Assembly: GCA_011391695.1 (NCBI GenBank) | Contig: JAABQB010000009.1 | Coordinates: forward strand, 1-64,000 | Source of the DNA: Desulfobacteraceae bacterium | GTDB lineage: Bacteria; Desulfobacterota; Desulfobacteria; Desulfobacterales; RPRI01 | Direction: 5' to 3' | DNA: 64,000 bases | Shown: positions 2,558-61,645 of the stretch, in pieces | Numbering within the stretch: the first letter of the stretch is position 1 | Layout of the letters: every line of letters starts with the position of its first letter | Position numbers and translations under genes: made by a program | Notes under the pieces: generated by a model | What the model saw: only the letters and a program-made list of their open reading frames with translations | What the model was told of the DNA's origin: nothing | Database searches by the model: none

Positions 2558-3872
2558 ATTTACCACGGCAACCCTTGGATGCAAAGTAAACCAGTGTGAA
2601 TCGGAATCAATTGCACAATGTCTTGCCTTATCAGGGTGGACACACGCCCGGAACGGCAATTGCGCTGATCTGTGTATTATCAACACGTGCACAGTTACTC
2701 ACAAAGCCTCCATGCAGTCAAGGCAGGCTATACGGCATGCCATGCGCTTGAACCCGGCCGCTCAAATCATAGTAACAGGTTGTTATGCTGAAACAGAACC
2801 GGATGAATTAAAAAAGATTAAAGGAATACATAGAATAATCGGGCAAAATGAAAAACATAGAATATTTGAAATAATAAAGAACGAGTTGAATTTTGAAACA
2901 CCCTGTTCATTTGTCTGTAAAGAAGGTATCTCCGAAAACGGATTCATGCCGGCTCCCGCTGTACATTCCGGAAGCAGGAGCAGGGCCTTTCTGAAGATAC
3001 AGGATGGCTGCGATGCCTTTTGTTCATATTGCATTGTGCCATACACGAGAGGCAGAAGCCGCAGCATGCCGGTTGAAACAGTAATTAAAAGCATAAAAAA
3101 TCTCGGGGAAGCCGGATACCTTGAAGTTGTTCTGTGCGGTATTCATCTCGGGCGATACGGCATTGATCTTACCCCTGGAACAAGCATTTCCTCAATTCTT
3201 GGCTTAATAAACGGTTTGAAAATCATAGAGCGGATACGTTTAAGCTCCATTGAACCTAATGAACTGTCTCCGGAGATCATTAAACTTGCAGAAGATTCAG
3301 ACAGCATCTGCCACCATTTCCATATACCCCTTCAGAGCGGAGATGATTATCTGTTAAGTAGAATGCGAAGGCCCTATACGCGCGAATTTTTTAAAACCAT
3401 TGTAAAAAATATTAATGAATCAATACCTGATGCCTCGATAGGCGCGGATATTCTTGTTGGTTTTCCCGGAGAAACGGATTCAGCTTTTGAAAACACTTAT
3501 TCACTTATAGAAGAATTGCCTGTAAGCTATCTGCATGTATTTCCCTTCTCGCCACGAAATAAAACTCCCGCAAACTCTTTTCCGGAAAGGATTCCGGCAG
3601 AAATTGTCAAAAAGCGATGTGCCAGAATGCGCAGGCTGGGCAATTTGAAAAAAAGTTTTTTTTATCAAAAAGCTGTTGGGAAAATGGTCAATGTGCTTGT
3701 TGAAGATAAACGAGATGCTTCAAATGAATTTTTAAAAGGAACATCTTCAAATTACCTTTCGGTTCTTTTACACGGTGAAGACGGAATTAAAAGCAAGATA
3801 GTCAAAGCAAGAATTGACAGAATAGCCGGAAATTTTGCAGTAGGAACAATCTGTTCGGATATTTACACATAA
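2550..3872 (+). CDS. mtaB: tRNA t6A37 methylthiotransferase MtaB
   Basis: 440-residue radical SAM methylthiotransferase. The N-terminal UPF0004 domain has the cluster-binding Cys11, Cys47 and Cys78. The radical SAM motif CDAFCSYC supplies Cys154/158/161. The C-terminal part fits a TRAM RNA-binding domain. The MPKFTTATLGCKVNQ start and TRGRSRS block are closer to MtaB (t6A to ms2t6A at A37) than to MiaB or RimO. An SD (GGAGGAGGG) lies inside the end of mnmA. It is the last gene of a compact sulfur-tRNA operon. Confidence 0.93.
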   Translation: MPKFTTATLGCKVNQCESESIAQCLALSGWTHARNGNCADLCIINTCTVTHKASMQSRQAIRHAMRLNPAAQIIVTGCYAETEPDELKKIKGIHRIIGQNEKHRIFEIIKNELNFETPCSFVCKEGISENGFMPAPAVHSGSRSRAFLKIQDGCDAFCSYCIVPYTRGRSRSMPVETVIKSIKNLGEAGYLEVVLCGIHLGRYGIDLTPGTSISSILGLINGLKIIERIRLSSIEPNELSPEIIKLAEDSDSICHHFHIPLQSGDDYLLSRMRRPYTREFFKTIVKNINESIPDASIGADILVGFPGETDSAFENTYSLIEELPVSYLHVFPFSPRNKTPANSFPERIPAEIVKKRCARMRRLGNLKKSFFYQKAVGKMVNVLVEDKRDASNEFLKGTSSNYLSVLLHGEDGIKSKIVKARIDRIAGNFAVGTICSDIYT

Positions 3873-3948
3873 TACTTCGTTATGTCTGCTCCGGACATGA
3901 GGATTGGTTGGGAGAAAAGTCAAGCATTCGCTTGCTTTTCCGGTCGCT

Positions 3949-3983
3949 GGAATCCTTGAATCCTGGGACCCTTGAATCCTCTT
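3949..3983. repeat. 35-bp dispersed repeat, copy 1 (CCTTGAATCC type)
   Basis: The intergenic stretch after mtaB holds a 35-base unit made of two CCTTGAATCC-like submotifs and ending CCTCTT. The same unit, equal length and with only a few differences, recurs at 62035-62069. A short stem (AAGCA/TGCTT, 3923-3938) precedes it. The rest of the 3873-4099 gap is AT-rich and shows no gene. Confidence 0.6.
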
Positions 3984-4099
3984 ATTAATTATTTTAGGTT
4001 GCACCATAAAGGGTTTTCATATATTGTTAAAATAAATATTTGCCTTCAAAGATCTAATGAGAACAAAGCGATATAAATCAATTGAAGGAGCTAATGTGT

Positions 4100-6499
4100 A
4101 TGAGCGGCATCGCTTCTAGCGGAATAAACATAAAAAATAAAATAAAGGAAGCCGAAACATATTATTCCATGGGAATGCTCAGTGATTCCCTGGATATATA
4201 TGAGCAGATACTTGCAAACAGCAATAATATGGCGGACCAAAATGAATTAGCCCAGATCGGGGAAAGGATCAGCCGGATTAAAAAAGACCTGTCATTGAAC
4301 AACATGACAAAACAGTCTGCAAATTTAACAAACGCGACATTGTCTTTGATACAGAAGACCATGTCGACCCGGGGAAGCATAAAAGATATAATAGATAATG
4401 CCGCTGCGCTTAAAGAGCTTGGACTAATCAGGGAGGCTGCCACCGAATATGAAAAACTCCTGAAAGCTGACTATTCGGAAGACGGATATACACCGGTTCG
4501 CATTGTTACCGAACTCCTTTCAAACCTCTTAAACATTGCTCCCCACGCAGATGTAATCACGAAAGCTGAAAACATTATAAATGAATATAAGCTTTCAAAC
4601 CGAGATGCCTCACAGATAAAATTATGGTTAGGATCTCATCTGGATAAAAAAGGGCATAAAGAGCTTGCGGTTTCATTGTACAAAAGCGCCCTGAATCTCG
4701 ATTCTGAAAATATTGAAATATCAAATCTGCTTAATTCCGTTGTTTCAAGTCTTTCTTACAATTCGAAGTTTGATTACCTTATCAATTCTTCTATTGTAAA
4801 CCCTGACCAGCTTCAACAAGCTCTTGCTAATTCAAGGAAAACGGGCAAGAGCGTTGAAATGGTGCTGATTGAAAGTTTTAAGATAAAGAAGCAGGATCTG
4901 GGCAAATCACTCTCAATGTTCTATGATTGTCCTTTCAAAGAGTTTGATCCCGACATGCCTACCCCGGTGGAACTTATCAGCAAATTAAAAAAATCATTTC
5001 TGCTTCACTATACATGGGTTCCTTTAAGCTGGGGGAAAAATTATCTGGAGATTCTTGTCGATGATCCCAGAGATCTCAGGAAAACCGACCACATCAAAGC
5101 ATTGATGGCAAATCAGAAATTGCATTTTTCAGTCGGGGTCAAAGAAGACATTGTTAAATATATAGAGCGTTTTTTTTCAGCTGATAAATTTTCAGAATCA
5201 CTTGAAAACAATCTTGATAATATTGACAGTTTCGTACCCGATGTTTCTTTCGAGGTCGAAGAAGATACAGAAATTGAAAAGGATATCGTAGACGAATCAT
5301 CAAGCCAGGTTGTTAAACTGGTTGATCAGATCCTTATAACAGCATTCAGGAAAAAAGTGTCCGACATACATATTGAGCCTTCCCCTGTAATTAAAAAGAC
5401 CTTAATACGATTCAGAATGGACGGTGTATGCCATGAATACCTTCAGGTCCCCAACACTATGGCTCCAGCAATTCTTTCCAGGCTGAAAATAATGGCCAAT
5501 CTTGACATAGCTGAAAGGCGGCTTCCGCAGGACGGCAAAATAAAAATTAAACGTAAAGGTGTGCCATCATTTGAACTGCGAATGTCAACCATGCCGACTG
5601 CAGGCGGATTCGAAGATACTGTATTAAGAATTCTTGCCAAAGCAGGCGCCATGAGACTTGATGAAATGGGACTGAATGATCGAAATTTAACAATCATGAA
5701 AGAAATCATATCTCAGCCTTATGGACTCATACTTGTTGTCGGTCCGACAGGTTCAGGCAAAACAACTTCTCTTCATTCAGCGCTCGGACATATAAATAAG
5801 CCCAATATAAAAATATGGACTGCAGAGGATCCGATCGAAATTACCCAGTCCGGATTGCGCCAGGTTGAGGTTAAGCCAAGAATCGGACTTGATTTTGCAA
5901 GAGTCATGCGAGGCTTCCTGCGTCTTGACCCGGATGTTATTATGATTGGTGAAATGCGTGACAAAGAAACAGCCTCTATAGGTGTCGAGGCTTCACTTAC
6001 CGGACATCTCGTTTTTTCGACGCTTCACACGAACAGTGCTCCTGAGACTGTGACAAGGCTTCTTGACATGGGTCTTAATCCACTCAATTTTTCCGATGCT
6101 TTCCTTGGAGTTCTTGCCCAGAGACTTACAAGAAGGTTATGCACAAACTGCAAAAAAACGTTCAATCCATCAAGGGAAGAATTCGAGGAAATTGTTTCTT
6201 TATATGGCATAGAACAATTCAAATCCACAGGAATCGTATATTCCTCTTCTCTTGTTCTCTATCGTTCCGCAGGATGCGAAGTTTGTTCAGGATCGGGATA
6301 TAAAGGCCGAATGGGAATACACGAACTCATGGAAGGCACTCCCGTTATGAAAGGATTAATTAAAAGAGCGGCAAATACGGAAGTACTTTTTGAACAGGCT
6401 TACAAAGATGGAATGAAAACCTTGAAGCAGGATGGAATTGCCAAGATTTTTGAAGGTCTGACAGACATAAACGAAGTTAAGAGAGTTTGTATAAATTAG
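4100..6499 (+). CDS. TPR-containing type IV pilus/type II secretion ATPase (PilB/GspE-like)
   Basis: About 799 residues, longer than usual PilB or GspE because of an extra N-terminal helical region (about 1-220) resembling TPR repeats. Residues about 230-360 look like the GspE N-terminal (MshEN-type) domain. The ATPase core follows: Walker A GPTGSGKTT near 550, Asp box AEDPIE near 574, Walker B region near 615, and His box STLHTNSAP. A CxxC...CxxC zinc site is near 681/684/726/729. Such ATPases drive assembly of pilus or pseudopilus subunits at the inner membrane. The ATG at 4100 is preferred because AAGGAG lies nine bases upstream; a TTG at 4082 overlaps that site. It is followed directly by chemosensory genes. 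Confidence 0.9.
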   Translation: MSGIASSGINIKNKIKEAETYYSMGMLSDSLDIYEQILANSNNMADQNELAQIGERISRIKKDLSLNNMTKQSANLTNATLSLIQKTMSTRGSIKDIIDNAAALKELGLIREAATEYEKLLKADYSEDGYTPVRIVTELLSNLLNIAPHADVITKAENIINEYKLSNRDASQIKLWLGSHLDKKGHKELAVSLYKSALNLDSENIEISNLLNSVVSSLSYNSKFDYLINSSIVNPDQLQQALANSRKTGKSVEMVLIESFKIKKQDLGKSLSMFYDCPFKEFDPDMPTPVELISKLKKSFLLHYTWVPLSWGKNYLEILVDDPRDLRKTDHIKALMANQKLHFSVGVKEDIVKYIERFFSADKFSESLENNLDNIDSFVPDVSFEVEEDTEIEKDIVDESSSQVVKLVDQILITAFRKKVSDIHIEPSPVIKKTLIRFRMDGVCHEYLQVPNTMAPAILSRLKIMANLDIAERRLPQDGKIKIKRKGVPSFELRMSTMPTAGGFEDTVLRILAKAGAMRLDEMGLNDRNLTIMKEIISQPYGLILVVGPTGSGKTTSLHSALGHINKPNIKIWTAEDPIEITQSGLRQVEVKPRIGLDFARVMRGFLRLDPDVIMIGEMRDKETASIGVEASLTGHLVFSTLHTNSAPETVTRLLDMGLNPLNFSDAFLGVLAQRLTRRLCTNCKKTFNPSREEFEEIVSLYGIEQFKSTGIVYSSSLVLYRSAGCEVCSGSGYKGRMGIHELMEGTPVMKGLIKRAANTEVLFEQAYKDGMKTLKQDGIAKIFEGLTDINEVKRVCIN

Positions 6500-6534
6500 C
6501 TTTATAAAAGCAAATCAATAACCAGGGTGAAGAG

Positions 6535-7338
6535 ATGCAAAAAAATGCTTTAGTAGTGGATAATGATTTTTTTTTCGTGGAGTTTTTAGGAGAACTGCTG
6601 GAAAAAAGAGGCTATAAAGTTATCAAGGCTTATGACGGAAAAGATGGGATTTCAAAAATTGAAACCGAGAATATCGATTTATTGTTTGCAGATATTGTCA
6701 TGCCAAAAATTGACGGTCCTGAACTAATAAAATTTGTCCGCATGAAATATAAAGAGAATTGTTTTCCCATTATCGCCGTATCCGGAATAATAATCGAGCA
6801 TCTCGGGAATCTGGACAAAATAGGTGCGGATTATTATATCGCAAAGGGCCCGATAGAAAAAATGGCAACAATGTTTAATGATTTTATGAACACGATCGAA
6901 AGTAATTCCGTCTTACCTGATCTTATCAGCAGCATAATTGAATCAGGCACCGTTTTCCCAAGACGTGAATCTGTTGATCTGATTGATTCGCTTCATTTCC
7001 AAAAATCGGTTATTAAATGCATAGGGATCGGGGTAATAATCCTTGACTCTGATACAAAAATTATGGAAGTAAATCCTTTAGTTATAAAATTATTAAACAG
7101 GTCTTACTCCGAACTCTTGAACCGCTCTATCATCTCAATTTTTCCGCATGAAAAACAAAAACTTATTAATGCATTAAAAGAGGTGATTCATAACAAGGAG
7201 CTTGATAATAAAGAATTGATTGCTACAGCAGATTCAAATAAAATCAGGGTAATTGTGTCGCAGTTGATTGTTGAAGATAATAATGTTGGATGGATACTGG
7301 CATTGGAGGATTACGGAAAATGGAAAGAACTAGTATAA
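6535..7338 (+). CDS. Response regulator: receiver domain plus PAS domain
   Basis: 267 residues. The N-terminal receiver domain (about 1-120) has acidic pocket Asp9/Asp11, phospho-acceptor Asp53 in LLFADIVMP, and the conserved Ser and Lys (AVSGI, YIAKGP). Residues about 150-260 look like a PAS domain. No DNA-binding or enzymatic output domain is visible, so it probably works through protein contacts. It lies 35 bases after the ATPase gene and overlaps the MCP gene. It may be the receiver of the CheA encoded at the end of this cluster; that pairing is inference. Confidence 0.87.
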   Translation: MQKNALVVDNDFFFVEFLGELLEKRGYKVIKAYDGKDGISKIETENIDLLFADIVMPKIDGPELIKFVRMKYKENCFPIIAVSGIIIEHLGNLDKIGADYYIAKGPIEKMATMFNDFMNTIESNSVLPDLISSIIESGTVFPRRESVDLIDSLHFQKSVIKCIGIGVIILDSDTKIMEVNPLVIKLLNRSYSELLNRSIISIFPHEKQKLINALKEVIHNKELDNKELIATADSNKIRVIVSQLIVEDNNVGWILALEDYGKWKELV

Positions 7339-8621
7339 AAAACAAGCTGATATTGTACTTCCTGCTTCTGTTGCTGGTTGTTCTGGTTGTTGCCGGAGTG
7401 ATAAATCATATAACAAAGGATTTTATCACTGCACAGGGGATTACAATGGCTCTGGCAATGGGAATTGGCACAATATTCGGAATTATTTTCTCAAGATCAA
7501 TTTTGAAACCGCTCAACAACCTGAACAATGCCGCAAGAGAAATAAGTAATGGAGATCTGTCGCGGGAAATCAATATAACATCACTTGATGAAATCAGGGA
7601 TCTCGAAGAAGTATTTTCTTTGATGGTCAACCAATTGAGGCTGCTCTTATATGACATGAAAAATGTTTCCCTGAAAATTCATGAGACTAATTCTATACTC
7701 GCAAGGCTTGCAAAGAAACTTCTCCAAAGCAGCAATGAAATTGATGTGACAGCAAAATCAATCGCGACAAGTTCTGCGGAACAGACACAGATTGTACAAA
7801 AGGTAACGCAAAAACTGGAAAGAGGCATTAAAGTAATGGATGAACTTGTAAAACAATCCTCCAATACAATTTCAAAGGTTGATGCGGCAATCCAAAAGAC
7901 TCAAAGGGGTGAAACCAATGCCCGTGAAACTCTTAACCATTTAGAGCTTGTGCTCAAACAGATGAGCGACTACGCCCAACAGGTATCACGTCTTCCAGAC
8001 AAGGTTGAAAAAATAAAAGTTATAACAAATGTAATGGAAACCATAGCACAAAAGACCGACCTTCTTTCTTTAAATGCTTCAATCGAAGCTACAAGGGCGG
8101 GCGAATCCGGAAAAGGCTTTGCCATAGTTGCAGATGAAATCCGGAATATGGCAGAAAACTCAAAACAATCATCCCAGACAATAGCGAAGCTGGTTGAAAA
8201 TATTCTTGAAGACAACAGCATGCTAAAAGAATATCTCACAAAAAATCAGATCGATATAAATGAAGGAAGAAAAATAATCAAAGGGATAGTCCAGACATTC
8301 AGCGAAACGCTGTTTGGTGTAAGAGAAATTTTTGAAGAAACAAAAGGCATGGGTGAGGTAACTGCCAGGCAGGCTGAAGAATTGAGAAGTTTCACAGAAA
8401 ATTTCAAGGAGCTCTCAGGTTTCGCCCACAAGAATTATGAATCTACGCAAAAAACGACCATTGCATCAAAGAATCAGAAAGTCGAGGTAATCAGGATTAC
8501 CAACGCCATAACATTGCTTGATAAACTTTCAAAAAAGATGATACAAACCCAGCAACAATTCAAGCTTCCCGAAATATCCAAACCTTCAGCCGATAAACTT
8601 CCGGAAGAAAACATAAAATGA
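7320..8621 (+). CDS. Methyl-accepting chemotaxis-like protein without a periplasmic sensor domain
   Basis: 433 residues. Two hydrophobic segments (about 10-27 and 39-57) are separated by only some ten residues, so there is no periplasmic ligand domain. A HAMP domain follows (about 58-110), then a long coiled-coil signalling domain with the conserved hairpin SLNASIEATRAGESGKGFAIVADEIRNMA. The ATG at 7320 has GGAGG ten bases upstream, inside the end of the previous gene; an in-frame ATG at 7290 is less likely. The stop overlaps the cheW start by four bases. The signal is probably sensed in the membrane or cytoplasm, or by a partner. Confidence 0.92.
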   Translation: MERTSIKNKLILYFLLLLLVVLVVAGVINHITKDFITAQGITMALAMGIGTIFGIIFSRSILKPLNNLNNAAREISNGDLSREINITSLDEIRDLEEVFSLMVNQLRLLLYDMKNVSLKIHETNSILARLAKKLLQSSNEIDVTAKSIATSSAEQTQIVQKVTQKLERGIKVMDELVKQSSNTISKVDAAIQKTQRGETNARETLNHLELVLKQMSDYAQQVSRLPDKVEKIKVITNVMETIAQKTDLLSLNASIEATRAGESGKGFAIVADEIRNMAENSKQSSQTIAKLVENILEDNSMLKEYLTKNQIDINEGRKIIKGIVQTFSETLFGVREIFEETKGMGEVTARQAEELRSFTENFKELSGFAHKNYESTQKTTIASKNQKVEVIRITNAITLLDKLSKKMIQTQQQFKLPEISKPSADKLPEENIK

Positions 8622-9022
8622 AATTTTTTGTTTTCAAAGTCAGTGATGAGTTCCTTGGAATAGAATCACAATTTATCCACAGAATAATCGATGATTCAAA
8701 AGCAACACCCGTATGCCTCACCCCGGACTGCTACGAAGGATTATTGTATTACAGGGGTGAGCTTTTTGATGTAATAAACCTTGCGCCCTTTTTCGGACAC
8801 CCTAAAAAAGAAGATGTGGAAAATACACGTATTATTATCCTTAAATGGGCAAATAAAAAAATGGCGATAATCCCGGATGATATTATCGGTATGATATGGA
8901 TGAAAGATGATTCTGAAGATCGAACGGTATTTCATTACGAAGGCCATGTTGCACGGCTTTTAAATCCTGATGATATCTGGAAGAAATTAACAGGGCTTTT
9001 CTATGGACCTAACAAAATATGA
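8618..9022 (+). CDS. cheW: CheW-like coupling protein
   Basis: 134 residues, one CheW/SH3-like domain (LYYRGELFDVINLAPFFG is the recognisable core). It should bridge the MCP at 7320 to the CheA-like kinase at 9003. It overlaps both neighbours (4 and 20 bases), which implies coupled synthesis. It is a little shorter than classical CheW and divergent in sequence. Confidence 0.85.
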   Translation: MKFFVFKVSDEFLGIESQFIHRIIDDSKATPVCLTPDCYEGLLYYRGELFDVINLAPFFGHPKKEDVENTRIIILKWANKKMAIIPDDIIGMIWMKDDSEDRTVFHYEGHVARLLNPDDIWKKLTGLFYGPNKI

Positions 9023-10580
9023 AAGAATTTTTTCTCAGGAATCAGACAAGTATCTTAAAGAACTTGATGATTTATTATTACATGTTGAAAAAGATTTATC
9101 AAACAGCAGCCTTTGGACTGAAATTCATGGTAAAATCCATTCCATAAAAGGAATGGCACGAGCTCTTAGTTTCGATAAGATTTCAGACCTGTGCCATTTA
9201 ATGGAAGACTGGTGCCTCAAATTTCAACAAGGCATAAGCACGTGTTCTGCCGCTTCTGTCCAACTGATCTTTGACGGTTCAGATATTCTTCGTTCTCTTG
9301 TTTTAAAAAGCGGCAGGATTGAATCACATGAAGAGCATAAATTATATAACAGCATTATATCCGGATTCCAAAAACCTCCTGCAGAAGTTACAAATAACAA
9401 TCAGAACCAGCCGGCTTCTTTACTGACTGCTTCCCAGCCGAGATTAACAAGCATCGATCATGTTAAAATACGGTATTCTCATATTGAAGAACTTCTCGGT
9501 CTCACACAGGAGATTCAGCTTTTAGCAAAAAGGTTCCCCCTATTTTCACAAGAGAAGCTGTCAGTCGGTTTAAAAAGTTGGGTTGATCATTATAACACGC
9601 TTATGAAGACCCTCTATTTTCAGCTGACCCAGTTAAGACTCATGTCTTTCGGCGATTTCGCGGATTTATTCCAGAAAAGCATCAGGAACATAGCCAAGGA
9701 ACACAATAAAAATATTTATGTTGAAATACTTGGAAGCGAGATCCAGGCAGATATAACAATTCTTGAGCGTCTCAGAGAGCCCATGATTCACATATTCAGA
9801 AATTGCATAGCCCATGGAATTGAATCACCGGAAGAGCGTCTCAGCAAACATAAACCCGCCGAAGGCAGAATTACAATTGAAGCAAAAAGCGAAAAAGAAA
9901 ATCTGTATCTTAAAATACGAGATGATGGCAGGGGTATAAACAAGTCGCTGATTATAAAGCATCTAAAAGAAAGACAGTCACTGACTGACAATGACATCAA
10001 CAATATGAACGAAGAAGAAATCTTTAACACTATTTTAAGTCCTGATTTTTCTTCCGCAAGGGAAACGACCGATTTATCAGGAAGAGGCATAGGTATGAGC
10101 GTGGTCGCCCAGACGATTGACTACATGGGCGGTTCATTATCCATCTCTTCGGAATTAGGCAGACAAACTGAATTTACTATAAAATTACCTATTTCTCTTT
10201 CAGTTATTTATGCTATAATATTTACTCTTGGAAAACATACTCTGGCTGTGCCGACTCTGAATGTAAAATCAATAGGAAGATTGTATGACAGTTCTGACAA
10301 TAACACAGAATCATGTTATGACTTAAGAAAACATCTTGGAATTACTGATTCTGAAAAAAGATTATCTAACTTTCTGAGTCTTAAATATGCCAGGCCTCCG
10401 GCAAGCCCCATCTCTGAAGGGAACAACCTAAAACTGCTTGCCGATAATATAATAGGAAACAGGCCTCTTATGGTCCTGCCAGCCGGAGAACTTATTTCAA
10501 AGATAAAGCTTTTTTCAGGAATAGGCATCATGGAAAATGGTGACATCTGCATTCTTCTTGATGTGGACAATCTGCCTTAA
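9003..10580 (+). CDS. cheA: CheA-like chemotaxis histidine kinase
   Basis: 525 residues. The P1 HPt domain is at about 1-110 with phospho-acceptor His46 in IHSIKGMARALSF. No CheY-binding P2 domain is apparent. A helical region (about 150-230) corresponds to P3. The ATPase domain has N box RNCIAHGIE (Asn267), G1 DDGRGI (about 307) and G2 SGRGIGMSVV (about 359). A CheW-like P5 domain occupies about 395-520. It is the last gene of the cluster. No CheR, CheB or stand-alone CheY is in the window, so the pathway may lack methylation adaptation or share those proteins. Confidence 0.92.
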   Translation: MDLTKYERIFSQESDKYLKELDDLLLHVEKDLSNSSLWTEIHGKIHSIKGMARALSFDKISDLCHLMEDWCLKFQQGISTCSAASVQLIFDGSDILRSLVLKSGRIESHEEHKLYNSIISGFQKPPAEVTNNNQNQPASLLTASQPRLTSIDHVKIRYSHIEELLGLTQEIQLLAKRFPLFSQEKLSVGLKSWVDHYNTLMKTLYFQLTQLRLMSFGDFADLFQKSIRNIAKEHNKNIYVEILGSEIQADITILERLREPMIHIFRNCIAHGIESPEERLSKHKPAEGRITIEAKSEKENLYLKIRDDGRGINKSLIIKHLKERQSLTDNDINNMNEEEIFNTILSPDFSSARETTDLSGRGIGMSVVAQTIDYMGGSLSISSELGRQTEFTIKLPISLSVIYAIIFTLGKHTLAVPTLNVKSIGRLYDSSDNNTESCYDLRKHLGITDSEKRLSNFLSLKYARPPASPISEGNNLKLLADNIIGNRPLMVLPAGELISKIKLFSGIGIMENGDICILLDVDNLP

Positions 10581-10617
10581 TTTTTTCATTCGGGTAATCG
10601 CCGCGGACACCTCTTTC

Positions 10618-11907
10618 TCATCTGGCCAGAAAAAGGCTCAATGACGGAATATAGGTCACAATCATAAGAAAAAGTAGCATAAGGGCAATATAAGGGATAG
10701 AGGCTCTATAAAGTTGTGTTACCGGCTTATTGAATTTCAGGCTGGCTATAAATAAATTTATTCCTACAGGCGGTGTTGAATAACCAATTTCAAGATTTAA
10801 AAGAAAAATGACGCACAAATGAACCGGATCAATACCATACTTCATTGCAACCGGAACCATAATAGGAACGATAATTATAATTGCTGAAAATATATCCATA
10901 AGGCAGCCGGCAACAAGGAGAAAAAGATTTAACCCGGCAAGAAAAAGCAGTTTGTTTTCTGTTAAATCCACCAGAAATGATAGAAGACGGCCGGGGATCT
11001 CTTCATCAACTAGGTATCCTGTAAATCCAAGAGCAACTCCAAGAATTACAATAATAGCGCCTGACACCATGGTGCTTTCTATTATTATTACAGGAAGTTG
11101 TTTAAAAAAATCGACCTCTTTCAATATCAGGCATTCAACTATAAGCACATAAACGAGAACAAGTGCCGAAACCTCTGCTATAGTTACAAATCCGCCATAA
11201 ATTCCAAATATTATTACCAATATAACGGGCCAATCCCAGATTCCTTCTTTTAATGCAATTTTCACATCATCCAAGCTTGCCTTTTTTAATACAACATGCC
11301 TGGTTTTTTTTGTAAGATATTCATGAAGAAATGAATAGATTGAAAGAATTGCGATCAGAAGTATTCCGGGGATAAGCGCAGCTTTGAAAATCCTTGCTAT
11401 ATCGACCTGCGCAACAACACCATAAAGAATAACAGGGAGACTGGGCGCAAACAAAAGACCCAGGCTTCCTGATGTGGTTAATAGCCCCAATGAAAAATTA
11501 TCTTCATATTCCTGCGCCCGAAGAACAGGATATAAAACCCCTCCTATTGCAACAATAGTTACACCACTTGCACCCGTTAAAGCGGTAAAAAAAGCACAGG
11601 AACCAAGAGCGGCTATGGCTATACCTCCAGGAAGACGGCCGGTTAATGCCCGCATTAGATTCATGATCCGTTTGGGAGCACCTGTTTCGGCAAGCAAACA
11701 CCCGGTGAAAGTAAAAAGAGGCAGAGCAACAAGTACCGGCATGGAAGCAAGCCTGTTCATCTCAATCACAATTGTTTGAATTGAGGAAAAATCATTGTCG
11801 ACGAAATAGAAGCTGACTATCGATAACCCGGCAATAACTGTAAACAGAGGAGTTTCGATCAGTGCAAAAAATATTATTCCAGAAATAATGAGAGTCAGAA
11901 TATCCAT
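10618..11907 (-). CDS. dctM: TRAP transporter large permease (DctM)
   Basis: 429 residues of almost continuous hydrophobic helices, as expected for the 12-helix DctM subunit that carries the Na+-coupled translocation path. It starts 10 bases after dctQ and is the last gene of the transporter operon. Blocks such as GASGVTIVAIGGVLYPVL and the C-terminal IGYSTPPVGINLF are typical of the family. It is convergent with cheA with only 37 bases between and no obvious terminator. The substrate is unknown. Confidence 0.95.
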   Translation of the reverse strand: MDILTLIISGIIFFALIETPLFTVIAGLSIVSFYFVDNDFSSIQTIVIEMNRLASMPVLVALPLFTFTGCLLAETGAPKRIMNLMRALTGRLPGGIAIAALGSCAFFTALTGASGVTIVAIGGVLYPVLRAQEYEDNFSLGLLTTSGSLGLLFAPSLPVILYGVVAQVDIARIFKAALIPGILLIAILSIYSFLHEYLTKKTRHVVLKKASLDDVKIALKEGIWDWPVILVIIFGIYGGFVTIAEVSALVLVYVLIVECLILKEVDFFKQLPVIIIESTMVSGAIIVILGVALGFTGYLVDEEIPGRLLSFLVDLTENKLLFLAGLNLFLLVAGCLMDIFSAIIIIVPIMVPVAMKYGIDPVHLCVIFLLNLEIGYSTPPVGINLFIASLKFNKPVTQLYRASIPYIALMLLFLMIVTYIPSLSLFLAR

Positions 11908-14417: not shown

Positions 14418-15263
14418 TCAGTTATCTTTTAATTCAGGCAATGGAACAGAAACAGAACTGATCATGTGAGATCGGCCCTCAAACAACGCGCCTTCCTTTA
14501 TATCTATGGAACGGGCTGAAATATCACCCTGAATTTTTCCTGAAGGCTGAATTATAAGCTGCTGACGAGCAAAAACATTTCCTGAAATCTTCCCGAGTAC
14601 AGATATGTTATCGGCTTCGACATCGGCTTCAATAACTCCTGTACTTCCAACGACAATATTGCCTTTCAAGCTGATCAAACCCTTTATTAACCCTTCAACA
14701 ATGATATTTTCATTGCCACTTACGTTGCCGTCAACTCTCGAATTCCTGCTTATTAATGAGGCTGTTTTGTTTGAAATAAAATCTTTAGCCTCCTCAATAA
14801 CCTCAGACGGAGTATTTTTTCTTATTTGTTTTAGGGAATTAAAAGTTTCTTTGTCTTTAAATAAATTATCCGTCTCCGGGTTACTACTCATTCTTGCCTC
14901 ACCGTCAAACACAGCCCCATCTTCAACAGATAGCCGTTTTGCAATTATTACACCTTTTATCTTTGCTGTCTTTTCGAGACAGATACGTTCTGACGCAAAA
15001 ACAGTTCCCTCAATAAGACCACCTGCAAATATTTTTTCGGCATAAATTTTACCGTTTATCTTTGATGTATCACCTATTTTAATGTCCCCAGACAATTCAA
15101 CCTCACCATTTATTGAACCCATTGCAATAATATTATCAATTCCTGAAACAGTCCCGGTTATAATTAAATTTTTTCCAATATAAGCAGTTCCCTCCGGAAG
15201 GGTTACTTTTCCGGTATCAAAAAAATATTTTTCTTCATTTTTTTTCTTTTTGAAAAAAAGCAT
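14418..15263 (-). CDS. Tandem bactofilin (polymer-forming cytoskeletal protein)
   Basis: 281 residues with two bactofilin domains, about residues 15-115 and 165-265, joined by a charged linker. Each is a run of short beta-helix repeats with Gly and hydrophobic periodicity, and the two align with each other (GTVSG and GNVSG opening blocks, then SINGEVEL and LIKGLISL). Bactofilins polymerise into filaments or membrane patches that organise envelope proteins. The ATG at 15263 is preferred over 15296 because AAAGGAG lies just ahead. The gene is co-directional with and close to the TRAP genes. Confidence 0.9.
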   Translation of the reverse strand: MLFFKKKKNEEKYFFDTGKVTLPEGTAYIGKNLIITGTVSGIDNIIAMGSINGEVELSGDIKIGDTSKINGKIYAEKIFAGGLIEGTVFASERICLEKTAKIKGVIIAKRLSVEDGAVFDGEARMSSNPETDNLFKDKETFNSLKQIRKNTPSEVIEEAKDFISNKTASLISRNSRVDGNVSGNENIIVEGLIKGLISLKGNIVVGSTGVIEADVEADNISVLGKISGNVFARQQLIIQPSGKIQGDISARSIDIKEGALFEGRSHMISSVSVPLPELKDN

Positions 15264-15458
15264 TACGTTCTCCTTTAATGCCATCTTATTAAGCATTATA
15301 AGATTTTAATTTTCTCTCAGCAAGACTTCTACGAGTTTTATAGAATCTCAACAGAGTTAGCTGGCACCGTTTGGCTTTGATTTCCTGAATATACCAGCAA
15401 ATTATAAAAATCAATGTATTACAAAAAAAAGCTCTGTGTTATAATCAGAAGCAGTATT

Positions 15459-58662: not shown

Positions 58663-60081
58663 TCAAAGCTTGATATTATAAGCCTTTATTTTGCTCAAAA
58701 GTGATGGATGGCTTATTTCAAGAAGGTGGGTTGCTTTTGTTCTGTTGCCTCCTGTTGCATTGAGAGCTTTTTCGATTAACTTTTTCTCAATGGTAATCTG
58801 CGCCGCTTTTAGTGAATATCCTCCATATGCATCACCTTCTATGCACGATTTCACCCCCGGTTCAGGTTGAAAATTTTCCGGCAATAGAACAGGTCCTTCT
58901 GCCAGCACGATAGCTCTTTCAATTATGTTTTCAAGCTCCCTGACATTACCGGGCCAGTCATGCTTCAACAAGAGCGCCATTGCTCCAGAAGATATCTCTT
59001 TAATATTTTCCCCAAATTTAATACTGAGCCGGTTTATGAAATGTTCGCATAAAAAAGGAACATCTTCCATTCGTTCCCTGAGAGGCGGCAATTTTATTGT
59101 AAAAACATTAAGCCTGTAATAAAGATCCCGGCGAAAAGCGGAATTTTTGATCTCATCTTCAAGATTTTTTGACGTGGCAGCTATAACACGCACATTAATT
59201 TTTTTTGTTTTTGAATCCCCCACGGGCCTTATTTCATTCTCCTGCAAAACACGCAGGATTTTCACCTGTAAAGAAAGTGGGAGTTCTCCGATCTCATCAA
59301 GAAAAATGGTTCCGCCGTCTGCTTCTTCAAACAGACCTTTTTTATCTTTTTCGGCTCCCGTAAAAGCTCCTTTTTTATATCCAAAAAGCTCGCTTTCAAG
59401 CAGGTTTTCGGGGATTCCTCCGCAATTAACGGGAACGAGAGTTTTTTTTGCACGCAATCCTCCGAAATGAATTCCCTTTGCAATAAGCTCCTTCCCTGTT
59501 CCGCTTTCACCCGATATCAAAACCGTGGTATCATACTGGGCAGCTTTAGAAGAAAGATTAAAAACCGACAGCATGCTCTTGCTTTTGGCAACCATATTGC
59601 CGAACGAATACTTCTCCTCTATTTTTCTTATCTGTTCCTGAAGAAAAAGATTCTCCCTTTTTAAACTTTCTCTCTCTTCGGCTTTCTTTAATGCAAGAAA
59701 CACCTCATCAGCCTTGAACGGCTTTGATATATAATCGTAGGCGCCCTCTTTCATTGCCTCAATAGCTGTATCTATGGTGCCGTATGCCGACATCATGATA
59801 ACAGTCGTCGAACCTATTTTATCCCTGGTTGTTTTAAGAAAATCGATCCCGTTCATTTTAGGCATTTTTATATCGCAGAGGATAAAGTCATACCTCTCTT
59901 TGTCAATCATGCTGAGTCCCTCGAGCCCATCCGCAGCAGTATCGACAATATAACCGGATTTTTTCAGCATTGCAGTCAGCATGTGACGCATATTCTCTTC
60001 ATCATCAATTACAAGAAGCCGCTTTTTATTGTTTATATTTTCCATAGACCGGTCAATCCTGTTGGAGGTTGTTTTTTGCAT
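58663..60081 (-). CDS. Sigma-54-dependent response regulator (NtrC family)
   Basis: About 472 residues. The receiver domain has its Asp in FILCDIKMPKMNG. The AAA+ domain has Walker A GESGTGKELIAKGIH, the GAFTGAEKDKKG loop that contacts sigma-54, and GGTIFLDEIGELP. A Fis-type HTH ends the protein. It activates RpoN promoters when phosphorylated by the adjacent kinase. ATG 60081 is two bases past the kinase stop; ATG 60045 is an alternative. Confidence 0.95.
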   Translation of the reverse strand: MQKTTSNRIDRSMENINNKKRLLVIDDEENMRHMLTAMLKKSGYIVDTAADGLEGLSMIDKERYDFILCDIKMPKMNGIDFLKTTRDKIGSTTVIMMSAYGTIDTAIEAMKEGAYDYISKPFKADEVFLALKKAEERESLKRENLFLQEQIRKIEEKYSFGNMVAKSKSMLSVFNLSSKAAQYDTTVLISGESGTGKELIAKGIHFGGLRAKKTLVPVNCGGIPENLLESELFGYKKGAFTGAEKDKKGLFEEADGGTIFLDEIGELPLSLQVKILRVLQENEIRPVGDSKTKKINVRVIAATSKNLEDEIKNSAFRRDLYYRLNVFTIKLPPLRERMEDVPFLCEHFINRLSIKFGENIKEISSGAMALLLKHDWPGNVRELENIIERAIVLAEGPVLLPENFQPEPGVKSCIEGDAYGGYSLKAAQITIEKKLIEKALNATGGNRTKATHLLEISHPSLLSKIKAYNIKL

Positions 60082-60082
60082 G

Positions 60083-61645
60083 TTATATTCTATCAGTCTC
60101 ATTATTAAGAGTAAGATATACAGACATGGTAGTGCCTTCGCCATCAACACTCCGGACTTTAATTTTACCTCCCATGCCATCAAGAAGCGCAAAACTTACA
60201 AACAACCCAAGTCCCGTTCCTTTTCCAGGCTCCTTTGTTGTATAAAACGGATCAAAGATATTGCCTATGCTTTTCTCAGGAATACCTGATCCGTTATCTA
60301 TAAATGATATTTTCAAGTAAGGCTTGTCATTTATTGGCTTATTATCCGGTTCAGAAACCACCTCGCTCTTAATCAATAACTTACCTATAAGTTTGTTTTT
60401 GGATGATGAAATAGCATCGGCTGCGTTTATAATAAGATTTAAAAATATCTGTCTTAATTGATTCGGATCCGATAGAACCCCGTCTTCTTCAGCTTCAAGA
60501 GATATTTTAAAATCGATACCGGACATAAAAGGCTGGAACCTGATAATCTCGGCAACATCTTCAATTACTTCATGTGCACTTACAATTTCCGGTTTCACCT
60601 CGGACGGTCTTGAAAAATCCAGAAGCTGCCCTATTATGCCGTTTACCCTGTTAATCTCATTTTCGGCTCTTTTGATATATTCATTTTTCTCATCATCAGG
60701 TATATTCTTTTGCTTTAAAAGCTCAAGATAGCCTATAATGATTCCGATAGGGTTTCCAACTTCATGAGCAATCCCGGAAGATAGCCTTCCAACAGAAGCC
60801 AGCTTTTCCGCCCGGATAACATCATTTTGTGCCTGCTTTAAATCTACGTTTGCTTTCTCAAGAGAGCTGATTGTTGCATGGAGTTTTGCCTTGTCTTCAG
60901 AAACTCTTTTCAGCAGCCGGTTTAAAGCCTTCGACAGCTTGTCGAACTCATTGTCCTGACTTCCGTACAGGAAAAAGAAGTCATCTTCTTCCCTGAATTC
61001 TTCAGCTCTCTTGACTATTCTTTGAACCGGCTTAACTGCGATATTCAAAATAAGGTAAAGCCCTGTCAATGTTAGCACAAACAGATTAATGACAAAATAA
61101 ACGAATAAAACTTTTTGTGTTCTCCTTAAAACCTTGTATATATTTTCAAGCTCCATGACAATGCCGGCTCCAGCTTCGGCCCGGCCATCCATAAGCAGAG
61201 GTACCGACACGACAAGGTGTCTATCCTGCATCCAGAAAACTCCCCAGGCAGTTCCTGTAAGTCGAGTCTTTTTTCTTGAGGATTCGATTGACTCCTTGGT
61301 AATAACCTTTAGCTCATCAAACAACGGGCAGGCCGGACTGTTCTGATATATTATATTTGAATTCCTGTCCTGTATTATAGCGCAGGAAAAGCCGGCCATA
61401 TTAAGAATTACGCTAAGCATTTCGCTGTAGTCGGGTTGAAGGATAAAAACGCCGGTATCGGACTTTTTTATCAAATGTTTCTCTATATCGTATGATAAAA
61501 GATATCCTTTTGAAATAGCGGATTGCACATAGTCTCTTTGCGCTGTGATAACCATTATTATATCAACGAGAAGCATTGAAACGGCCAAAAGGAATGCAAG
61601 TTTAATGGCGATATTGGTTTTAATTCCGTGAAAAGCCACCGTCAT
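60083..61645 (-). CDS. Membrane sensor histidine kinase, partner of the NtrC-like regulator
   Basis: 520 residues. Two membrane helices (about 13-30 and 180-205) enclose a periplasmic sensor domain of about 150 residues. HAMP follows, then HisKA with ASVGRLSSGIAHEVGNP and the HATPase with NAADAISS, DNGSGIPE and GTGLGLFVS. It probably phosphorylates the regulator encoded two bases downstream. The start may be a GTG at 61639, which has better spacing from GGAG than the ATG at 61645. Confidence 0.94.
   Translation of the reverse strand: MTVAFHGIKTNIAIKLAFLLAVSMLLVDIIMVITAQRDYVQSAISKGYLLSYDIEKHLIKKSDTGVFILQPDYSEMLSVILNMAGFSCAIIQDRNSNIIYQNSPACPLFDELKVITKESIESSRKKTRLTGTAWGVFWMQDRHLVVSVPLLMDGRAEAGAGIVMELENIYKVLRRTQKVLFVYFVINLFVLTLTGLYLILNIAVKPVQRIVKRAEEFREEDDFFFLYGSQDNEFDKLSKALNRLLKRVSEDKAKLHATISSLEKANVDLKQAQNDVIRAEKLASVGRLSSGIAHEVGNPIGIIIGYLELLKQKNIPDDEKNEYIKRAENEINRVNGIIGQLLDFSRPSEVKPEIVSAHEVIEDVAEIIRFQPFMSGIDFKISLEAEEDGVLSDPNQLRQIFLNLIINAADAISSSKNKLIGKLLIKSEVVSEPDNKPINDKPYLKISFIDNGSGIPEKSIGNIFDPFYTTKEPGKGTGLGLFVSFALLDGMGGKIKVRSVDGEGTTMSVYLTLNNETDRI

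Follow-up and report, generated by a model that had tools for sequence, protein, structure and literature searches.

A PilB-type ATPase with a predicted TPR domain shares an operon with a REC-PAS regulator and a minimal chemosensory array in a Desulfobacteraceae bacterium

We analyzed the first 64,000 nucleotides of contig JAABQB010000009.1 of an uncultured Desulfobacteraceae bacterium (assembly GCA_011391695.1), hereafter the window, where an operon combines a pilus-type assembly ATPase with chemosensory genes. Five intact genes form a single run at positions 4100-10580: the ATPase, a REC-PAS response regulator, a methyl-accepting chemotaxis protein (MCP), CheW, and CheA. A preliminary description of this DNA had proposed that order in a tight, partly overlapping run; Pfam and the open reading frames (ORFs) place all five genes accordingly, with a gap of 35 bp between the ATPase and REC-PAS genes and about 19, 4, and 20 bp shared at the next three junctions (REC-PAS/MCP, MCP/CheW, and CheW/CheA). 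The features are as follows.

4084..4090, plus strand: putative ribosome-binding site GAAGGAG for the ATG at 4100, read from the sequence
4100..6499, plus strand: TPR-MshEN-PilB-type assembly ATPase, 799 aa from the ATG at 4100 (Pfam, alignment of eight orthologues, AlphaFold, Foldseek, and VIA)
6535..7338, plus strand: REC-PAS response regulator, 267 aa (Pfam REC and PAS, conserved residues)
7290..8621, plus strand: MCP, 443 aa (Pfam, hydropathy, alignment to solved MCPs, orthologues)
8618..9022, plus strand: CheW, with no other stand-alone CheW in the genome (Pfam)
9003..10580, plus strand: CheA, the only CheA of the genome (Pfam and conserved boxes)

The ATPase ORF opens at a TTG at 4082, from which its residues are numbered below; the eight aligned orthologues instead begin at the Met at 4100. 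Orthologues likewise indicate that the MCP probably starts at 7320 and not at 7290. Promoter-like sites occurred at chance level, with none on the plus strand in the gap ahead of the ATPase gene. The reported absence of CheR, CheB, CheY, and pilus structural genes nearby was borne out: no CheR, CheB, or pilus gene was recognized in the window, and no ORF for a lone CheY (DifD) or CheC lies within 3872-10618, where REC-PAS is found instead. The preliminary description also called the chemosensory cluster and the ATPase fused, a term that applies to the TPR domain on the ATPase; the che genes are mere neighbors.

The ATPase comprises a helical TPR region (residues 9-226), a degenerate MshEN domain (229-370; Pfam E 2.5e-10), and a T2SSE ATPase domain (405-801; E 6.5e-118). 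Its core is complete, with Walker A, Walker B, Asp/His boxes, and a tetracysteine; the Walker A motif (GPTGSGKTT), the DPDVIMIGEMRD and TGHLVFSTLHTN regions, and the four Cys are conserved across 40-49 relatives. PilB entries head the sequence matches in the PDB, Geobacter PilB gave the best structural matches in Foldseek, and the NCBIfam models scored 506 bits for PilB and 470 bits for GspE. By sequence, the protein is confirmed as a complete PilB-type motor. It resembles canonical PilB, the type IVa pilus extension ATPase, in its full catalytic core, zinc tetracysteine, and PilB fold. It differs in carrying an N-terminal TPR domain and a degenerate MshEN domain that lacks the c-di-GMP motif, in having no adjoining pilus genes, and in being an extra motor beside a separate PilB, encoded next to PilY1, in the same genome.

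A pattern scan with a relaxed MshEN c-di-GMP motif (two 24-residue RLGxx... motifs, from PMC5013675) matched none of 146 TPR-ATPases, whereas a control ATPase matched three times. Regulation by c-di-GMP through MshEN is unsupported given the absence of the motif by this pattern, and the customary input of such motors therefore looks replaced. The NCBIfam model for an MshE-related c-di-GMP domain matches residues 231-278 at 28.7 bits, below its cut-off of 38. The control, an 885-aa PilB-like ATPase of another genome (G010; L320:42-2699, minus strand), lies a few genes from a cluster of a stand-alone TPR protein, MglA, and DUF4388 (L320:8221-9834).

The preliminary description had guessed the extra TPR domain from the sequence. 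No TPR model matches the ATPase above the Pfam cut-off; sub-cut-off matches fall at residues 107-130 and 182-210. An AlphaFold model of residues 1-230 (mean pLDDT 84) returned leading fold matches that are overwhelmingly TPR domains, and its best VIA-align match was HOP TPR2A (Z 12.8, root-mean-square deviation 4.2, 125 residues over 97-227). The guess thus gained support from both approaches, and the predicted structure holds as a genuine TPR fold.

The REC-PAS protein matches the Pfam REC (4e-16) and PAS (1e-6) models and retains D9, D11, the phospho-acceptor D53, S83, and K104. D53 is kept in 25 of 25 REC-PAS proteins linked to che genes. R143, an Arg in the linker between REC and PAS, occurs in all 67 REC-PAS proteins counted (che-linked ones plus those paired with the ATPase only) and is more constant than D53; it is a candidate contact residue.

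The remaining three genes encode a small array. Hydropathy shows the MCP (HAMP 4e-12, MCPsignal 2e-30) to contain two hydrophobic stretches, around residues 19-40 and 47-66, with a very short loop between them and HAMP after the second. With its tip glutamate at residue 272, the signaling domain measures about 22 heptads per arm; from HAMP to beyond the tip it is about 30 residues longer than Escherichia coli Tsr (36H) and nearly equal in span to the Thermotoga maritima receptor 2ch7. The receptor would accordingly belong to the Dif-like class 44H, an assignment judged by length and not by a class hidden Markov model (HMM). CheW matches its Pfam model with an E value of 7.5e-16. CheA (Hpt 1.4e-10, HATPase 1.5e-16) has a single Hpt with the motif HSIKG, a dimerization domain, intact N, G1, and G2 boxes of the HATPase, and a weak CheW-like P5; it has no REC and no P2-sized insert. 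A 971-aa hybrid histidine kinase (REC, PAS, GAF, HisKA, and HATPase, with domains assigned on L055) is encoded after CheA in two members of the genus (L054:4035-6950, minus strand, and L055:12347-15262, plus strand).

The array is most readily compared with Dif of Myxococcus xanthus and the Dif-like clusters of Geobacter (PMC2577667, PMC3945109), with which it shares CheW, CheA, and an MCP with HAMP, two transmembrane segments, a tiny periplasmic loop, and about 22 heptads per arm. The M. xanthus dif cluster lacks CheR, and the genome of the window lacks both CheR and CheB. PilB is genetically linked to the M. xanthus pathway (PMC5544727), and here a TPR-PilB gene lies inside the operon. Differences are equally evident: the window has REC-PAS in place of lone CheY (DifD), CheC, and CheD genes, and its CheA is 525 aa long compared with 857 aa for DifE. 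Because the cluster has neither a lone CheY nor CheC, we did not file the operon as Dif. It also has none of the multi-Hpt ChpA, PilG/PilH, or PilK/ChpB of the Pil-Chp system of Pseudomonas aeruginosa, given its single-Hpt CheA without REC and the lack of CheR and CheB.

The genomic background places the operon in a cell with a single array. The assembly (G000; 2.8 Mb, 98% complete, 116 contigs) encodes one stand-alone CheW, one CheA, and one clear MCP, all in the window operon. No match to CheB, CheR, or FlhA was found in this draft genome, and CheB is also missing from the close relative G004. Flagellar chemotaxis was rejected as a role for the operon on the basis of the missing FlhA, the single receptor, and the missing CheR and CheB. 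Besides the window ATPase, T2SSE matches are the GspE of a gsp operon, a PilB encoded next to a PilY1-like gene, a GAF-domain ATPase, two PilT-like proteins, and one more protein that is PilT/CpaF-like. Only two platform proteins, GspF and one PilC, are present, and pilMNO lies on contig C21. Because the genome already has type IV pilus parts and a type II secretion system (T2SS), the window ATPase is, from gene content, an extra, orphan PilB-type motor. The GAF-domain PilB-like ATPase (contig C32; L060:6769-9075, minus strand) is the outgroup closest to the TPR-ATPases on the tree; its MshEN is similarly degenerate, and no signaling neighbors were recognized by eye.

The preliminary description named neighborhood comparison in related genomes as a check on the link between the ATPase and the che genes. 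We found their adjacency kept across Desulfobacterales with other flanking genes, so the refuting case it had named, an ATPase gene not kept next to the che genes elsewhere, did not arise. Seven genomes of the genus (G000, G001, G002, G004, G005, G006, and G009) have all five genes of the block together, and in G003, G007, and G008 the block is split or ended by a contig edge. Its flanks vary between mnmA/mtaB upstream with TRAP genes downstream and a malic-enzyme-like gene downstream; a chance neighborhood was therefore rejected. In another family, G053 carries a full set of roadblock, MglA, ATPase, REC-PAS, MCP, CheW, and CheA genes. A genome-wide REC-PAS alignment scan returned about 65 loci, all from Desulfobacterales or from records labeled Deltaproteobacteria or Proteobacteria; the isolate NaphS2 has two copies, one with and one without che genes. 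Matches from Vagococcus and Enterococcus (L195-L209), mostly receiver-only matches of the pattern scan, were dropped.

Among 71 distinct REC-PAS proteins, several of them from incomplete loci at contig ends, REC-PAS follows the ATPase in 64. Forty-two are with the ATPase alone, 22 lie between ATPase and MCP, three precede an MCP without an ATPase nearby, and four have neither neighbor. CheA occurs in 9 of 81 TPR-ATPase loci with enough downstream sequence, and REC-PAS is present in all nine. The preliminary idea of a dedicated signaling unit tied to the ATPase is thereby well supported, given that the genes stay adjacent across Desulfobacterales while their flanks differ, that REC-PAS is the constant partner, that no CheA follows a TPR-ATPase without REC-PAS, and that the array is the only one in the genome. 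One locus (L158:3790-8926) contains two divergent units, ATPase-REC-PAS and REC-PAS-MCP-CheW-CheA, each with its own REC-PAS. Mapped onto trees, the presence of che genes switches at least 10 times for REC-PAS and at least 11 times for the ATPase, numbers partly inflated by contigs that end early. Loci without the array sometimes encode a large REC-bearing protein, probably a hybrid histidine kinase, directly upstream of the ATPase (L179, L188).

A second type of partner emerged when the sample was drawn by the ATPase N-terminus alone from 389 genomes of the order, which avoids a bias toward REC-PAS. Flanks counted as full when they reached 6.4 kb or more upstream and 3.8 kb or more downstream. 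Of 121 TPR-ATPase loci, 65 qualified, and all 65 have a signaling partner: an MglA/roadblock-type cluster in 47, REC-PAS in 14, and both in four. The MglA/roadblock type was defined as any of an MglA-like GTPase, a roadblock protein, REC-DUF4388, or a small Robl2-labeled protein upstream; an MglA-like GTPase proper was seen in 48 loci. By Pfam, the two main cluster genes match Ras and Robl_LC7 and a third combines REC with DUF4388; the 115-aa "Robl2" protein, whose label is a guess, has no Pfam match. In a FastTree phylogeny, a single group of 57 with modest support (82) holds most of the REC-PAS-linked ATPases, amid MglA-linked ones; the tree was read without a direction of change between the two. 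In other orders, for which neighborhoods rest on 1.5-kb flanks, MglA directly precedes the TPR-ATPase in G590 and G632. Many TPR-ATPases are preceded by a long conserved cluster, as in L124:600-11137, which runs from roadblock and MglA-like GTPase genes through four to five uncharacterized proteins, a PAS protein, REC-DUF4388, and the small 115-aa protein to the ATPase and then an RsmG-like gene. One uncharacterized member is a membrane protein with a zinc-ribbon-like start, and several members have no Pfam match.

TPR proteins related to the ATPase N-terminus also stand alone. An HMM of the ATPase TPR region finds such proteins beside MglA in other genomes (E 3e-18 and 1e-16). In the genome of the window, an MglA-like GTPase on contig C36, 55% identical to an ATPase-linked one, has a 321-aa protein encoded ahead of it and a DUF4388-cNMP protein after it. 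Profile comparison aligns the 321-aa protein with the ATPase N-terminus (94% probability, E 8e-8, residues 15-190), and in a search of 4,061 ORFs with its HMM, TPR-ATPases fill all places shown after its own family, a ranking that offers no more than support, since TPR-ATPases abound in that set. The M. xanthus TPR protein SgmX (1,060 aa) binds GTP-loaded MglA and works upstream of PilB (PMC7668184, PMC7519303). We liken the two systems by description: as SgmX does, the TPR module here would join signaling to a PilB motor, and most relatives of the window ATPase have an MglA-like GTPase and roadblock proteins encoded alongside. The window ATPase differs in that the TPR domain is fused onto the motor, the operon partner is REC-PAS, and the MglA-like gene lies elsewhere in the genome.

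We consider it somewhat probable that the operon encodes a complete chain from receptor to pilus extension. A minimal, adaptation-free Dif-like array (one MCP, CheW, and CheA) would phosphorylate REC-PAS, which would act on the TPR-fused PilB-type ATPase, probably through the TPR domain. As a second motor, the ATPase would drive extension at the single type IV pilus platform shared in the cell, with REC-PAS setting when or where. In this scheme, we infer phosphotransfer from CheA to REC-PAS, contact between REC-PAS and the TPR domain, the direction of signaling, and a pilus rather than a T2SS as the target. Precedent exists for chemosensory or orphan receivers that act on PilB or its localization. 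EmvR, a REC protein of Xanthomonas, binds PilB and lowers its ATPase activity (PMC11973254), although it consists of one receiver domain and has no kinase array, unlike the REC-PAS operon. In Pil-Chp, PilG controls PilB localization, and the polar placement of PilG depends on the hubs FimV/FimL (PMC12632253). Several observations weigh against the proposed chain. D53 is lost in 6 of 42 REC-PAS proteins paired with the ATPase only (kept in 36), compared with 0 of 25 che-linked ones, which is not clearly different; phosphorylation is therefore not always needed for the pairing. No TPR position clearly separates REC-PAS-linked from MglA-linked ATPases apart from one weak candidate, E124, and thus no docking site is visible. 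The ATPase falls below the NCBIfam PilB cut-off of 675.65 bits, a threshold that does not discriminate here because the canonical PilB beside PilY1 is also short of it (530.9 bits). Locus L159 has REC-PAS-MCP-CheW-CheA with no ATPase nearby. Lastly, the place of PilB in M. xanthus is upstream of Dif (PMC5544727), and information may therefore flow the other way.

In such a reversed flow, the motor would be the sensor, the array would read its nucleotide or engagement state, and CheA would signal through REC-PAS to exopolysaccharide or other outputs. This would suit the Dif-type MCP (44H estimate, two transmembrane segments, tiny loop) and the lack of CheR and CheB (PMC2577667, PMC3945109), as well as the position of M. 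xanthus PilB upstream of DifA/C/E (PMC5544727). We regard it as unlikely, if the most serious of the alternatives, given that no exopolysaccharide genes were recognized beside the block in the window and that 42 of 71 REC-PAS proteins are paired with the ATPase without a visible MCP, which ties REC-PAS to the ATPase independently of the array. The many loci with REC-PAS after the ATPase yet without MCP or CheA also make it quite improbable that REC-PAS is an array-side regulator, either a phosphate sink or a redox or ligand sensor feeding CheA, that is merely co-expressed while an MglA-like GTPase encoded elsewhere drives the TPR domain; such a GTPase is nevertheless present in the genome, adjoining a TPR protein homologous to the ATPase N-terminus, and many TPR-ATPases adjoin MglA. 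The motor could instead power the T2SS or another filament, with the array controlling secretion, for the gsp operon has its own GspF and the ATPase scores between the PilB and GspE models (506 and 470 bits). However, this operon already has its own GspE, PilB ranks first in sequence and structure matches, and the related family adjoins MglA/roadblock genes, whose known role is in type IV pilus and gliding polarity; we judge a secretion motor very unlikely. Plain co-transcription without functional coupling is hardly credible, as gene order is conserved across families while the flanks change.

Chemosensory and small-GTPase control of pili is already known. A PilB with a built-in TPR domain was not found in a targeted full-text search of the open-access literature, including a 2024 PilB review. 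Among relatives, such docking motors are encoded beside either REC-PAS or a Ras-like polarity switch, an arrangement suggesting that sensing may feed directly into pilus extension. We advance more tentatively, as a possibility short of probable, that TPR-PilB proteins are a family of signal-gated pilus motors with the docking adaptor fused to the motor and a shared platform serving different switches: most lineages would use an MglA-like GTPase and others REC-PAS. The Dif-like array would have been gained or lost repeatedly, and the window operon would be a chemosensory take-over of a motor formerly gated by a polarity GTPase, linking a receptor to pilus extension within one operon. Even for Pseudomonas and Myxococcus, in which hubs or adaptors intervene, there is only a partial understanding of the way chemosensory arrays and Ras-like switches act on the pilus motor. 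In the window operon, what is presumed to be the adaptor belongs to the motor itself, and five genes would make up the entire chain, without adaptation enzymes or a competing array; phosphotransfer, docking, and ATPase activity could therefore be rebuilt with purified parts. The neighborhood survey further leads us to predict that sulfate reducers and related bacteria, whose surface behavior is little known, have a PilB family gated by MglA.

Around the operon, mnmA and an mtaB-like gene form the upstream flank, and genes for the TRAP transporter proteins DctM, DctQ, and DctP lie downstream on the opposite strand. Just past these TRAP genes, and close to the ATPase operon, is a bactofilin gene (window 14418-15296, minus strand; Pfam PF04519, E 7e-43); in M. 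xanthus, bactofilins assist in positioning pilus motors. Farther along the window, a histidine kinase and a sigma-54-activator response regulator are encoded as an adjoining, slightly overlapping pair at 58663-61645 on the minus strand.

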